64,000 nucleotides of DNA from a virus: the IMG/VR virus record IMGVR_UViG_3300049845_000008, positions 1-64,000 of that record. One strand, given 5' to 3'. How positions within the stretch are numbered: the stretch's first letter is position 1; the number at the start of each line of letters is the position of its first letter. The position numbers and the translations under genes are program-made. This document shows positions 3,186-8,620 of this stretch, piece by piece. The notes below the pieces were generated by a model. The model had not been told where the DNA came from, did no database searches, and saw only the letters and a program-made list of their open reading frames with translations.

Positions 3186-4601
3186 TCAGGCTTCCGGAAC
3201 AAGGAACCCGTGATTGCCGACAGTTTCATCGAAGATGAGCATCGCAGACTTCGCAGCCTTGATCTGTGCATACGTTACCGCAGTCTTGCGGTCGAACGCA
3301 TCGACAATGTAGCAAGCCTTTGCATCATCCTTGAAGATGGATACCGGAGTCTTGTACTTGGCGGCGAGCATCGTCACCATGTCATCGAATTCCTTCGCTT
3401 CGGGCATCTTGCCTTCCGCTTCCACCTTGAACGCTTCCGCGTCGATCTTGCTGTACAAGTCGAGGAATGCGGTCTTCGTTTCCGCATCGAACCGGTTGAG
3501 GCACTTTTCGATTGCTTTCATGCGATTCTTCTTGAAGATCTTGAAAGCCTTGGCAATGTGCACAAGGCGACGGGTGGAAATGATTTCATCCACTGCGCCA
3601 TCCTTGAAGGTCTTGCGAATGGCTTCCGCCCACGTTACCAGACGGTCGATAAAATCGTCGTCCGAGATTTCCAACGCTTCGAAATTCTTCGCGAGAATTC
3701 GGCGTTCGGTCTTCGCATCCGGATAGTCCTGCTCTTCCGTAAGAGCAAAACGTTCAAGCATGGCTTCGTTCATGACGTTCGCACCGAGGTAGCGACCATC
3801 CGCGTCACCCTTGCCCTTAGTGTTAGCCGTTGCGCAAATCTGGAAACCGAATGCCGGGTGGACGATTTCGCCGGTCTTCTTATCGAAGTACGGCTTGCCT
3901 TCTAGAATCGGCTGCAAGCAAAGCAAGTCTTCGGTGCCAAGGTCAACTTCATCCAGAAGTAGAACCGCACCGCGCCGCATCGCAGTCAACACCGGACCTT
4001 CGCGGCGAATCGTAGAACCATCGATCAGTTCGTAAGAGCCGATCAGGTCCGTTTCATCGGTGCGCTTAGTGATGTTCACGCGAATGACTTCGCGCCCAAG
4101 GGACGCGCAAACCTGCTCCACCATCAGGGTCTTACCGTTGCCTGAGTGACCCTGAATAAAAACAGGGTAGAAGAGTTTTGAGTTTATGATATCCCGAAGG
4201 TCATCGAAGAAACCAAACGGAACGTAGGTGTCGAGCCGATCCGGAACAAAGGATTCGGTGACGTTGAGCGCACGCTTCGAAGCAATCTGCACAACGGCAG
4301 CGGATTGCACCATAGCCGGTTCTTCCGCTTCGATCTTGTCGAGCGCCGCCGCGATTGCGTGGCTCATGGTGTTCTTTTTCAGGAGCGCGGAACGCGAGCA
4401 AAGTCGATACTTGCCGCGAGCAAACTTGCGCTTGTCGTCGCGCAGAATGAAATGCGGAACGGGCAACCCCTTGGACTCCGCGAAGTCAAGGATTTGCTTG
4501 GACGTTGCTGTATCGCCAAATTCGGCAATCAGGTCATCAAGGAATTTTTGCTGCTGTTCCACGGTGTAATTCGGAGTGCGTGCCATATCGGAGAATGCCA
4601 T
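3186..4601 (-). CDS. cobS-like: MoxR/CobS-like AAA+ ATPase
   Basis: This 471-residue ATPase resembles CobS, the AAA+ subunit of aerobic cobaltochelatase, and phage CobS homologues. After an N-terminal segment of about 75 residues, possibly a small DNA- or protein-binding domain, the AAA+ module shows Walker A GHSGNGKT (151-158), Walker B LLLDEVD (214-220), a sensor-1 ATAN (257-260) and an Arg finger-like ER (283-284). MoxR-family ATPases work with a VWA-domain partner, and such a protein is encoded just upstream at 5620-7968. The two genes share a homologous leader (4599-4683 and 7966-8052). No other cobalamin gene is visible, so a remodelling role unrelated to B12 is as likely as metal insertion. 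Confidence 0.85.
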   Translation of the reverse strand: MAFSDMARTPNYTVEQQQKFLDDLIAEFGDTATSKQILDFAESKGLPVPHFILRDDKRKFARGKYRLCSRSALLKKNTMSHAIAAALDKIEAEEPAMVQSAAVVQIASKRALNVTESFVPDRLDTYVPFGFFDDLRDIINSKLFYPVFIQGHSGNGKTLMVEQVCASLGREVIRVNITKRTDETDLIGSYELIDGSTIRREGPVLTAMRRGAVLLLDEVDLGTEDLLCLQPILEGKPYFDKKTGEIVHPAFGFQICATANTKGKGDADGRYLGANVMNEAMLERFALTEEQDYPDAKTERRILAKNFEALEISDDDFIDRLVTWAEAIRKTFKDGAVDEIISTRRLVHIAKAFKIFKKNRMKAIEKCLNRFDAETKTAFLDLYSKIDAEAFKVEAEGKMPEAKEFDDMVTMLAAKYKTPVSIFKDDAKACYIVDAFDRKTAVTYAQIKAAKSAMLIFDETVGNHGFLVPEA

Positions 4602-4683
4602 GAGTTACTATCTATGCTACCAGTATGAGGGAAGTCGAGTCAAAACGCAAGTCAGGAAAGCTTTTGGAAATCAATGACTTACG
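4599..4683 (-). promoter_or_regulatory. Leader of the AAA+ gene, homologous to the CobT-like leader
   Basis: The 82 bases before ATG 4601 align without gaps over most of their length with the leader of the CobT-like gene. Three blocks fall at the same offsets: CGTAAGTCATTGATTTCCAA (offset 1-20, spanning the upstream stop codon), CTTGC (33-37) and CTGGTAGCA (61-69). Within it a possible promoter is TTGACT (4638-4643), an 18-base spacer and an extended -10 TGGTAGCAT with -10 TAGCAT at 4614-4619. The -35 box is not shared with the other leader, so the conserved blocks may be a regulator site or an RNA element. Confidence 0.55.
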
Positions 4684-4939
4684 AGAATGTGCTAGCAGAA
4701 TAGGTGTTTCGTGGCACAATTTCGGCTTCGATCACGATCCAGTCGATAGGGTCGGGGTATCGTTCCGTTCCGTACAGTCCATATCGTTCACGATAGTTCT
4801 TAATTGAGGTAAGATGGCTCTTAACGAATGCTTTCTTTTTCCAAACCTTCGCATCGCCAATCTTGTCAGTCCATGTGGGACACGGACAACCACCCTTGGA
4901 ATACTTACCCGTCTTAGCGTCTTGAATCATGTACATCAT
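4679..4939 (-). CDS. Small hypothetical protein (86 aa)
   Basis: An 86-residue soluble, slightly basic protein without recognisable motifs, apart from a CPC pair (GGCPCPTW) and a lysine-rich centre. It follows the 179-residue gene by four bases and ends in the leader of the AAA+ gene. Coding is supported by tight packing within the operon. Two adjacent ATGs (4939 and 4936) could serve as start, and no strong Shine-Dalgarno is seen. Function unknown. Confidence 0.6.
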   Translation of the reverse strand: MMYMIQDAKTGKYSKGGCPCPTWTDKIGDAKVWKKKAFVKSHLTSIKNYRERYGLYGTERYPDPIDWIVIEAEIVPRNTYSASTFS

Positions 4940-4943
4940 AGTG

Positions 4944-5483
4944 TCATACCATCGGTAGTAAATTAGGCGGCGGCATGGACTTTCTCACCGCATCTTCGGC
5001 TTGTTCGCGGCAGCGAGTGTAAGCCTCAGTCTCAGGAAGAGAGCTATCATACCAGATATCGAAAGACTCGTAACTCGGCGTTACGGTTGTGGTCGATGCG
5101 TCGTCATAGGTTTGCAGTGTGAATGGGACCATCTTAGCCACTTTCAGGCTCACCATGCCACGCTCAATTGCTTGGCGCACAAGATCTACAACCTTACGAT
5201 TGAATTGCTTGTCCCACTTCAACTGTGTTTTCTTGTTCTCTGTCACAATGAACAGTCGGCGTGCATTCAAGTCTTCTGGACTCGGACGGTTTCCCTTCAC
5301 GTATTTATCAAATGACTTGATGTTTCGCATTACGTAGTCCACCATGTCATCGTACTTGTCGTCATCGAATCGTGTGCCGTCAATCAATTCATATTGGAAA
5401 GCTTCCATGCGAAAGGTGAACGGCACGCCATAGATCGTGCCGTCGCCCATCGGACCCCTGCCCATGAATGGATTGATTGCCAT
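4944..5483 (-). CDS. Hypothetical protein (179 aa)
   Basis: A 179-residue soluble protein starting MAINPFMGRGPMGDG. It has no signal peptide, membrane segment or recognised catalytic motif, a charged middle, and a C terminus ending in prolines and hydrophobics (MPPPNLLPMV). Its start codon shares one base with the stop of the 46-residue membrane protein (TAATG), so translation is coupled. It lies between the CobT-like and CobS-like genes, and its position suggests a link to that ATPase/VWA pair. Nothing in the sequence shows what it does. Confidence 0.65.
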   Translation of the reverse strand: MAINPFMGRGPMGDGTIYGVPFTFRMEAFQYELIDGTRFDDDKYDDMVDYVMRNIKSFDKYVKGNRPSPEDLNARRLFIVTENKKTQLKWDKQFNRKVVDLVRQAIERGMVSLKVAKMVPFTLQTYDDASTTTVTPSYESFDIWYDSSLPETEAYTRCREQAEDAVRKSMPPPNLLPMV

Positions 5484-5623
5484 TATTTCTTGTCTTCATT
5501 ATCGAACCACATCATGAGCATCATGTAAAGTATGAACTGCTCCATTTGGGTTCCATCGAAAATCCAACCACAAAGCGCGGCGAAGAAAACCGCGAAAACG
5601 ATCTTCATAATACTAAACATCAT
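5483..5623 (-). CDS. Membrane microprotein (46 aa)
   Basis: A short frame of 46 codons begins with two ATGs (5623 and 5620) and reads MMFSIMKIVFAVFFAALCGW, then a short linker, a second hydrophobic stretch (FILYMMLMMWF) and an acidic-basic end DNEDKK. The first hydrophobic run could be a signal-anchor or transmembrane helix. Both ends are coupled to neighbours: ATGA overlap with the CobT-like stop and TAATG overlap with the next gene. That tight fit, rather than its length, supports it being real. It may anchor a component of this cluster to the inner membrane; that is inference. Confidence 0.6.
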   Translation of the reverse strand: MMFSIMKIVFAVFFAALCGWIFDGTQMEQFILYMMLMMWFDNEDKK

Positions 5624-7968
5624 GCTGCGATATCCTGTGCAAATTTAGAAACAAGGATGCGGTGCTTACGCTTGTCATCCTGCGCGTCAGTGAAAACCTT
5701 GGCAATCTTCTTGCTGCTCATGTCTTCGGAGAGGCTGTAATCTTCATCCGTAACATTGAGGTCATTCTGGTTGACAAAGTAGTACATGTCATAGCCGATC
5801 ATCGGCATGGAGTAGTAACCATCCTTGCGCCACTGCTTTTCCATTTCCTTTTCAGCCAATGCGTCCATTGTGGAGTTCTGGCGAATGTAGCCCTTGACCG
5901 CACGCGCATTACCGATATAGAAGCCGATATGCTTGCAACCGGTCGAGGCACGCACAAACTCGGTCATAGCCTTCTGGTGCTGAATAGACGAAGTGTAGCC
6001 GTTGATCAGTTCGACACGGCGACGGGTCTTCGGGTCGATCAGATAGATATGCTGTTCGATCTTCGGCTTGCCTTCGGTAGTCATGGGCGACGGCTTGATA
6101 TCCGTGAAGTTGAAGCAACCGGTGCCGTCACCGTCCGTAAGATAGATGACGTTGGTGATATCCACCTTATTGTCAGCCTTGAAGCGTTCGATCATCGGGC
6201 GCGAAGCCATGACCGTATGAGTGAACGGAGTGCCGCCGAGAGCCAGACCCATCGCATCCCACGACAGATACGTGCGCGGATACATGCGGCTCTTCCAGTT
6301 CATTGCGATTGCTGCCATTGCGTCAACCGCACGGCGATACACGTTACCCTGCAACTGCGAAGATACAAAGTGAATCAGGTGGAAACCGTCACTGGTAATC
6401 GCATACGCATCGTTGTTCAACTTCTGGAACTTCTGTCCGATAAAGCCAGAGTTCAGCTTTTTCTTGGCAATCATGCCATACAGGAAGTCCTTGCGATCCG
6501 AGAAACCGTAAACGTCGAACGGGATGCCGACGCGACGGCAGAACGCAGTGAGAATAAGCGTCTGTTCCATGGTCGCGCCGAAGCAATCTGTCATGGAGCC
6601 AGACATATCCACGTACATGATCATGCCGTGGCTCTTGCCCTTTTCGACAACAGAGATTTTCTTGAACAGGTCATTCGAATACTTGTACTGGTGCAGCTTG
6701 GACATGTCCAGTTCGCCAGTCTTCGCTACGGTAGTGCGAGCGTACTGCCGCGCATTCTTCCGCATTTCGAATTCCTTGACCAGAAGGTTGATGTAGCGAT
6801 TGTTCTTCTCAGAGAAACGCTTCGCAGCCGTGGCTACGATAGGATCATTCTTACCGGCAAGCTTTTGCGCCTGCGCCAACTGCTCATAGAAGTTGTCAAC
6901 GAATACCTTGTGCGGAACCACGATGCGGTCGAGCATCGGCTTCGGCAGATTGTATGTATAGACTTCCACGCCGTCCGCGATCAGTTCGCGTTCACGGTCA
7001 CGGAAAATCTTGTCGGTGATGGACTCAGGCTCTTCGGTCTTACCTTCCTCGCCTGCGCCACTTTCACCCGGAGCCTCTTCGGTGGAATCCTTCTCTTCCT
7101 TACCCTCGGCAGCTTCATCGCCTTCGCCGGATGCCTCAGACTCTTCCTCGGATTCATCGTCGGAATCTTCCGCATTAGAACCGTCCGCAGTCTCTTCATC
7201 GTCGGAATCTTCATCCGTAGAATCAGACTGCGAAGCCTGCGTTTCCTGTTCCTCTTCCTCGCTGCCATCATTAGACAGGTCGAGTTCCTGTTCTTCGGGA
7301 GCATCGAAGTTGCCGGTTTCGCAGTTATCTTCAAACTGGCGCAGCAACTCTTCGGTCAGGTCTTCAAGCGAATTCAGCTTGTCGTCCTGTTCCTTTTTCG
7401 CGAGGTCGAACAGACGGTGTGAGAGTTCAACAACTTCATCCCAAGTCTCGGTGTTTTCGACTTCGCGCATAAGGTCGCGCTCTTCATCCGAAAACGGAAC
7501 GATCAGGAACGCGCCACACTTCGCATACAGATTGATGCGGTCGAGGATGTTCAGCTTGGAATAGTCATTGAGATTCTTGATGCCGAAGAAATCCCGTTCG
7601 AAGAGATTCTTGTAACCGGCAACGAATGACTTGGAAAGACCGGGATACTTGCGCTTGATCAGTTTTTCGATTCGCGCATCTTCCACGATGTTCAGGACAT
7701 TCTTGAACGTGCCGATGATCTTGCCGTTTTCATCGTGGATAGCGTTGTGCCAACCCTCTTCGGGAGTGAAGAGAGCATGACCGACTTCATGCCCACCGAG
7801 CAAATCATAAAGCGCACCGTCCATATCTTCCCAAATCGGCAGATACAGGGTGCGAGTCTTCAATTCGAATGCCGCAGTGCTGACACGTTGATGCACTACG
7901 TTGATGTTTTCACCCGCGAGCAATTTCGCGAGCATTGACTTGGTGATGCTAAGATTGGTGGCTGACAT
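5620..7968 (-). CDS. cobT-like: CobT-like protein with HExxH motif and VWA domain
   Basis: This 782-residue protein has the CobT layout. An N-terminal helical domain carries a zincin-type HEVGH (60-64), followed by a possible third ligand in NIVEDARIEKL (93-103). A long Asp/Glu/Ser-rich linker spans about 222-318. A C-terminal VWA domain (from about 445) has an intact MIDAS: DMSGS (454-458), a later GGTPFT threonine and LTDGDG. VWA partners of MoxR/CobS ATPases carry substrate or metal to the ATPase ring. The HExxH motif suggests a zinc-peptidase fold, but activity cannot be judged. It is transcribed just after peptide deformylase and before the membrane microprotein. Confidence 0.82.
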   Translation of the reverse strand: MSATNLSITKSMLAKLLAGENINVVHQRVSTAAFELKTRTLYLPIWEDMDGALYDLLGGHEVGHALFTPEEGWHNAIHDENGKIIGTFKNVLNIVEDARIEKLIKRKYPGLSKSFVAGYKNLFERDFFGIKNLNDYSKLNILDRINLYAKCGAFLIVPFSDEERDLMREVENTETWDEVVELSHRLFDLAKKEQDDKLNSLEDLTEELLRQFEDNCETGNFDAPEEQELDLSNDGSEEEEQETQASQSDSTDEDSDDEETADGSNAEDSDDESEEESEASGEGDEAAEGKEEKDSTEEAPGESGAGEEGKTEEPESITDKIFRDRERELIADGVEVYTYNLPKPMLDRIVVPHKVFVDNFYEQLAQAQKLAGKNDPIVATAAKRFSEKNNRYINLLVKEFEMRKNARQYARTTVAKTGELDMSKLHQYKYSNDLFKKISVVEKGKSHGMIMYVDMSGSMTDCFGATMEQTLILTAFCRRVGIPFDVYGFSDRKDFLYGMIAKKKLNSGFIGQKFQKLNNDAYAITSDGFHLIHFVSSQLQGNVYRRAVDAMAAIAMNWKSRMYPRTYLSWDAMGLALGGTPFTHTVMASRPMIERFKADNKVDITNVIYLTDGDGTGCFNFTDIKPSPMTTEGKPKIEQHIYLIDPKTRRRVELINGYTSSIQHQKAMTEFVRASTGCKHIGFYIGNARAVKGYIRQNSTMDALAEKEMEKQWRKDGYYSMPMIGYDMYYFVNQNDLNVTDEDYSLSEDMSSKKIAKVFTDAQDDKRKHRILVSKFAQDIAA

Positions 7969-8052
7969 GAGAATCCTCTATCCTGCCACCAGTTTGACAG
8001 GTTTTCTAGGGGAAAGCAAGCCTTATAACCCCTTAGAAATCAATAACTTACG
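7966..8052 (-). promoter_or_regulatory. Leader of the CobT-like gene, homologous to the AAA+ leader
   Basis: The 84 bases before ATG 7968 begin CGTAAGTTATTGATTTCTAA at the deformylase stop codon and continue with CTTGC and CTGGTGGCA at the same offsets as in the 4599-4683 leader. An imperfect inverted repeat (TTTCTAAGGGG and CCCCTAGAAA, 8003-8039) lies between the first two blocks. No clear sigma70 -10 was found, which suggests that the conserved blocks are not simply a promoter. Confidence 0.5.
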
Positions 8053-8620
8053 CGCCCTTCGTGATCTTGCGGATCTTTTTCAGGTTCGTTTTGACCTTTC
8101 TCTTAGCTATGTCTAATTTGATTGGCGACACAAGATCCGTGTAACAGATGCCGCGCAGATGGTCAATCTCATGCAGCACGCACGTTGCCATGATCCCTTC
8201 GAACTTCTGGCGAACCACTTCGCCGTTGAATGCTTGGAAGTCCACGATGACCCATTCCGGACGAGCCAGTTCTAGGAACAGACCGGGGAACGAAAGGCAT
8301 CCTTCCTTGAAGTCACTCGTCGTCGGTGACATTTCTACGATGGTCGGATTGATCAGGCAGATCGTCTTGTTGTTCTCAAGATCAACCACCACGCAAACAG
8401 AATGCTCCAAACCAACCTGATTGGCTGCGAGTCCCAATCCCTGATAGTGGGCTACGGAATCGATCAGGCTCATGCCGATGTACGATACCTGTGTTCCCGG
8501 CATCGTGTCGAAGTCGATAGGCTTTGTCGGCTTGCGGAGAATTGGATCGTACTGATCCACCAGAGGTAGAACTTCCGATTCTACCATTTCGCCTTCGATG
8601 AATTTGATATTCTTACTCAT
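8048..8620 (-). CDS. def: Peptide deformylase
   Basis: This 190-residue protein has all three deformylase motifs: GLGLAANQ (61-68), EGCLS with the metal-binding Cys (106-110) and HEIDH with two His ligands and the catalytic Glu (150-154). It removes the N-formyl group from nascent polypeptides in the cytoplasm. Phage deformylases are known from marine myoviruses, where they are thought to support rapid turnover of host photosystem or other membrane proteins, or to ease phage translation. The gene overlaps the gp46 stop by four bases. The C-terminal tail is long and basic (from about residue 165, KLDIAKRKVKTNLKK), longer than minimal phage versions. Confidence 0.93.
   Translation of the reverse strand: MSKNIKFIEGEMVESEVLPLVDQYDPILRKPTKPIDFDTMPGTQVSYIGMSLIDSVAHYQGLGLAANQVGLEHSVCVVVDLENNKTICLINPTIVEMSPTTSDFKEGCLSFPGLFLELARPEWVIVDFQAFNGEVVRQKFEGIMATCVLHEIDHLRGICYTDLVSPIKLDIAKRKVKTNLKKIRKITKGA

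Follow-up and report, generated by a model that had tools for sequence, protein, structure and literature searches.

A shared sigma70-type promoter module with an IHF-like upstream element at the cobS- and cobT-like genes of a virus record and of related phages

Introduction

Several sigma70 promoters, lambda pL and Mu Pe among them, are assisted by integration host factor (IHF). At the IS5-activated glpFK promoter, IHF and A-tracts activate transcription in a helix-phase-dependent way (PMC2753651). The published consensus of the IHF site is TAAnnnnTTGATW (PMC8407004, PMC8421141), and in PMC8421141 it includes an A-tract. In phage T4, host-type −35 and −10 hexamers and an A-rich region upstream are found before many small early genes (PMC1524935). 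In the Stenotrophomonas phage DLP6, 25 motifs found with PHIRE, 22 of them in pairs, were reported as predicted phage promoters (PMC5349666).

Here we analyze two leaders that share a 13 bp element, E, upstream of a promoter. Promoters with E resemble glpFK-like ones in having an IHF-type site upstream, with an A/T-rich tract in most of the related phages, and, in DLP6, in helical phasing; their near-fixed geometry, by contrast, recurs at many promoters within a single phage. The likeness to the T4 early promoters lies in the host-type hexamers, the small genes behind them and the A-rich upstream region; the T4 class differs in its −35, GTTTAC, and in a UP-like A-rich stretch between −40 and −44, and no E has been described there.

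Results

The cobS and cobT leaders share one layout

The window, the whole 64,000-nucleotide stretch that was analyzed, is part of a 73,810-base (73.8-kb) IMG/VR virus record; the relatives that the annotated collection contains belong to the T4 superfamily and are mainly cyanophages. Its minus strand encodes, in this order, a gp46-like nuclease subunit, a peptide deformylase, a CobT-like protein, two small ORFs and a CobS-like AAA+ ATPase. The features considered here are the following:

3186–4601, minus strand: CobS-like AAA+ ATPase gene (AAA_5; phrog_249 'porphyrin biosynthesis')
4622–4627, minus strand: putative cobS promoter, −10 CATACT, 17 nt after the −35
4645–4650, minus strand: putative cobS promoter, −35 TTGCGT, 18 nt after E
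4669–4681, minus strand: E before cobS, TAAGTCATTGATT, which fits the reverse complement of the IHF consensus WATCARNNNNTTR; its TAA is the stop of an 86-aa ORF
5620–7968, minus strand: CobT-like gene (phrog_459 'peptidase'; without a Pfam family)
7991–7996, minus strand: putative cobT promoter, −10 CAAACT, 17 nt after the −35
8014–8019, minus strand: putative cobT promoter, −35 TTGCTT, 18 nt after E
8038–8050, minus strand: E before cobT, TAAGTTATTGATT; its TAA is the stop of the def gene
8048–8620, minus strand: peptide deformylase gene (def), with its stop codon inside E

A sequence-only reading had described three blocks shared by the cobS leader (4683–4602, 82 nt) and the cobT leader (8052–7969, 84 nt). 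Both the sequences and the offsets of these blocks were confirmed on the minus strand, and the two leaders agree at 43 of their first 69 positions. The CTTGC block and the first bases of the CTGGTRGCA block are present, but not as separate motifs: they read as the −35 and −10 regions of one promoter, TTGC(G/T)T - 17 nt - CA(T/A)ACT. Each leader consists of E (TAAGTYATTGATT), 18 nt, a −35 TTGCKT, 17 nt and a −10 CAWACT, an arrangement of the sigma70 type (−35 and −10 hexamers with 16–18 nt between them) in which the hexamers of the window are weak. As had been noted, the TTGACT/TAGCAT pair is not common to both leaders, and it is probably not the promoter. The MotA middle promoter of T4 was considered and rejected: the MotA box has a GCTT core to which TTGCTT is similar, but it lies 11–13 nt from the −10 (PMC1524935) and the spacing here is 17 nt.

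Allowing up to 3 mismatches, the 20-nt block that opens the leaders occurs twice in the window against 0.02 copies expected, and none of 100 shuffles reached two; the 16-nt core has just two sites in the whole 73.8-kb record, those in the cobS and cobT leaders. Both blocks start 2 nt ahead of a TAA stop that belongs to E (8050–8048 for def, 4681–4679 for the 86-aa ORF). In this way the putative binding site incorporates the stop of the upstream gene (window 4679–4681 and 8048–8050), as it does in several relatives.

The module is kept at cobT and cobS of related phages

Among 11 relatives identified by a protein-anchored search, E precedes cobT and cobS in nearly every case in which the leader was covered. 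Absence of the blocks in close relatives would have spoken against a regulatory module; they are present at cobS and cobT there, and the idea survives. In a larger protein-anchored set E was found at all 34 of 34 clade cobT loci, several of which come from the same contigs, and it is present in 42/42 distinct clade cobT/cobS leaders, which are related by descent and hence are not independent events. A scan with a fixed 17-nt spacer placed the best promoter 18–20 nt past E in 39 of the 42. In the other three (L279 cobS, L294 cobS and L202 cobT) it settled on different hexamers, and inspection by eye gave distances of 18–19 nt with spacers of 16–18. The module is kept down to ~40% protein identity, with the bases between the blocks changed, and before some cobS genes a small gene has been inserted and E lies farther upstream.

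Phages outside the clade carry E sporadically, several of them in reverse before cobT or cobS, often 8 nt from a TTGACA. Three cyanophages have no E at cobT (three leaders only), an absence that would be expected if their hosts lack IHF. In an AT-rich subclade (L007, L008, L011 and L013) ~6 nt separate the −10 hexamer from the cobT ATG (GATAATGGTTGTATG), so that a leaderless cobT mRNA is predicted.

E sites of phage DLP6 are helically phased with their promoters

The isolated phage DLP6 contains 30 TAANNNNTTGATT sites, every one of them TAAGT and all TAAGTNNTTGATT; the reversed DLP6 sequence contains none. They precede 15 promoters as 13 pairs, one triple and one single, the cobT and cobS clusters included, and paired sites lie 25–26 bp apart. 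In the 14 groups with reverse orientation, the −10 lies 33–34, 43–44 or 54–55 from E, which gives R 0.96 at 10.5 bp. Of 20,000 uniform draws none reached this value; the simulated p-value is too favorable, because the spacing had been noticed by eye before the test and the promoters share ancestry. Even so, three distance classes one helical turn apart remain striking. At site 142308 the −10 given by the program is doubtful, and a likelier one, TATACT at 33, is in phase too. Since the distance between E and the promoter falls on whole helical turns, E should be a DNA site that acts together with RNA polymerase.

The PHIRE motifs of DLP6 lie before genes that have tandem E sites, including AAY80_058/059 (the cobT homologue) and AAY80_060, before cobS (PMC5349666). 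The motif thus was already known in DLP6 under another name, an identity that we take from the positions, the logo of the paper being an image. Unlike here, the motif itself was taken as a promoter lacking −10 and −35 boxes, and IHF goes unmentioned in that paper.

E fits the consensus of the IHF site

E was set beside several known bacterial motifs until IHF fitted; IHF alone was then put to a test, its match having been noticed by eye beforehand. E agrees with the 13-bp consensus WATCARNNNNTTR (reverse-complement form YNANNNNTTGATW). Moreover, the T-rich run at positions 23–27 in the clade is on the same side as the A-tract of PMC8421141, facing the promoter. An A/T-rich tract on the WATCAA side is found in most of the clade, is partial or imperfect in the two window copies and is absent in DLP6, whose E sites show no clear A-tract. 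The GT at N1-N2 of E is invariant in the clade; E is in this respect stricter than the IHF consensus and, given the host counts below, is in its exact form not just the general host site. A phage-encoded regulator had been suggested as the binder. A search of 12 related records, mostly fragments, revealed no phage-encoded IHF or HU, and a host protein fits better. A literature search with the exact sequence returned incidental matches only, one of them an ICEclc primer.

Next, we searched IMG/VR and bacterial genomes with a 26-base pattern, which was derived from E itself and whose matches cannot argue for the conserved right half. It matched >120 IMG/VR stretches and was rare in bacterial genomes (42 stretches, many of them from Burkholderiales). 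Several bacterial copies of E adjoin tRNA or tmRNA ends, and in L157 a match to the phrog_1 integrase (PHROGs) lies 95 nt from E, in an ORF that Pfam did not recognize. No sigma54 promoters were found near the bacterial sites with a simple pattern. In six of these loci (L164, L185, L187, L167, L179 and L194) E sits in the loop of a terminator-like hairpin, with tmRNA as the neighbor in L185 and tRNA-Ser in L167 and L179.

The bare footprint YAANNNNTTGATTN9TTTT, with N4 and N9 free, was then counted against a reversed pattern, a control that preserves composition but not dinucleotides. The tally leaves out one match for every genome that had been reached through an E locus and includes G013 a single time. 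The 59 family-drawn Burkholderiaceae genomes contain 124 footprints, compared with 16 in the control. All proteobacterial genomes searched gave 229:16 compared with 24:15 in five others (Fisher p 5e-7), and 156:16 when one Orbaceae genome was left out (p 3e-5). IHF-type footprints are therefore common in proteobacterial hosts, which is not to say that E itself is used by them. Of the 124 footprints of the family draw, 15 have GT at N1-N2 (p 0.014 against 1 in 16), and there is no enrichment of G at N1; in the genomes reached through an E locus, with the selecting matches removed, GT was found in 6/17. The proposal that host genomes share the GT preference of E failed in the family draw.

The Zophobihabitans genome G080 (locus L176, 2.7 Mb) has 74 footprint-type sites and 0 controls, mostly with C at N1 and some as inverted pairs ~33 bp apart. 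A near-identical footprint, TAAACAATTGATTG(C/A)AAGGGTTTTT, recurs in seven Burkholderiaceae genomes (G037, G038, G040, G058, G059, G073 and G074), which suggests one conserved chromosomal site.

These data also bear on a different binder, since E, for all its likeness to an IHF site, could serve another sequence-specific DNA-binding activator, encoded by host or phage. The GT that is invariant in the clade is not strongly preferred in the family-drawn host genomes, and the 25–26 bp between tandem DLP6 sites is tight for IHF: each IHF site occupies ~35 bp, and two full complexes at once are hard to reconcile with such spacing. On the other hand, E fits the IHF consensus in full and has its A/T side where it should be, E sites lie at tRNA ends, one of them beside an integrase, and no candidate protein has emerged. 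On balance we consider another activator unlikely, though still a serious contender.

The module precedes many genes other than cobS and cobT

Additional copies of E are found at several places in G004 (172 kb), often in tandem, as well as in G001, G009 and G010, and the module also lies before other genes in L060, L077, L092, L101 and others. Across the loci examined, a good promoter (spacers 16–18) follows E at 137 distinct sites in forward and 52 in reverse orientation. With any distance from 0 to 59 nt allowed, it is located at 18–21 nt in 112 of the 137 forward sites, compared with a promoter in 1/30 control sites in the same scan, in which one of the accepted −35 forms, TTGCTT, came from this clade. 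Reverse-oriented sites outside DLP6 show weak phasing (R 0.37).

The genes behind the additional copies are mostly small and without assigned function. Early phage genes usually are small and of unassigned function; the genes behind E fit this description and may be expressed early. In the Pseudomonas phage phiH1 (L411) and the Sphingobium phage Lacusarx (L412) E lies beside terminase genes; IHF sites lie near lambda cos.

The sequence-only reading had taken the blocks for a regulatory module that coordinates cobS and cobT specifically. A DNA module kept at both genes across relatives is what we found, and in the 73.8-kb record it is indeed restricted to two copies, with E before both genes throughout the clade. 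Elsewhere, in relatives and other phages, there are many copies, before many other genes in the genomes and loci just named and before 15 DLP6 promoters, so a signal specific for this pair is very unlikely. Co-expression of cobS and cobT may still result from both having the same promoter class.

It is more improbable still that E is an RNA element, as had also been proposed, or that it serves the upstream gene as an intrinsic terminator. E does come after stop codons, and some copies form hairpins, such as L277 cobT and the bacterial tmRNA and tRNA terminators, but the mean folding z of about −0.26 is no better than that of shuffled sequences and no stable conserved hairpin emerged. Moreover, E is found upstream of the promoter, at a near-fixed distance, in both orientations and with the helical phase kept. 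Finally, a recent duplication of one leader, its copies diverging without function, would account for three blocks at identical offsets but hardly for their retention in relatives down to ~40% protein identity while the bases between them changed, and we give it next to no credence.

Discussion

Our results favor the view, held with moderate confidence and resting on sequence comparison, that the two leaders are sigma70-type promoters with an upstream E that most likely is a host IHF site, and that they are probably early. What was seen directly is that the two leaders share an architecture, that it is conserved and used at other genes, and that DLP6 shows helical phasing. In the mechanism that we propose, E, that is TAAGTNNTTGATT plus an A/T-rich stretch towards the promoter, would be bound by host IHF, which would bend the DNA sharply; DNA bent on the correct helix face would then aid the host RNA polymerase at a weak core promoter, an effect of activation rather than repression. 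This help would probably come before the phage makes its own activators, and cobT and cobS, the sole carriers of the module in the 73.8-kb record, would be switched on in the same way.

That a conserved host-type promoter module is widespread in phages is well supported, and IHF is the best single candidate for its binder. The module looks like a general way of borrowing a host protein and not like a special link between cobS and cobT. More tentatively, and with some doubt on our part, E may mark a large phage promoter class that extends from the T4 superfamily to unrelated proteobacterial phages and in which helix-phased and sometimes tandem host IHF sites replace a viral activator and early transcription depends on a host nucleoid protein. 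If this is true, it would provide a mechanism for the DLP6 promoter motif, which was reported without one, and promoters would become predictable from sequence across many uncultured phages. A host nucleoid protein whose level depends on growth would help to set phage transcription, and ihf mutants should impair such phages.
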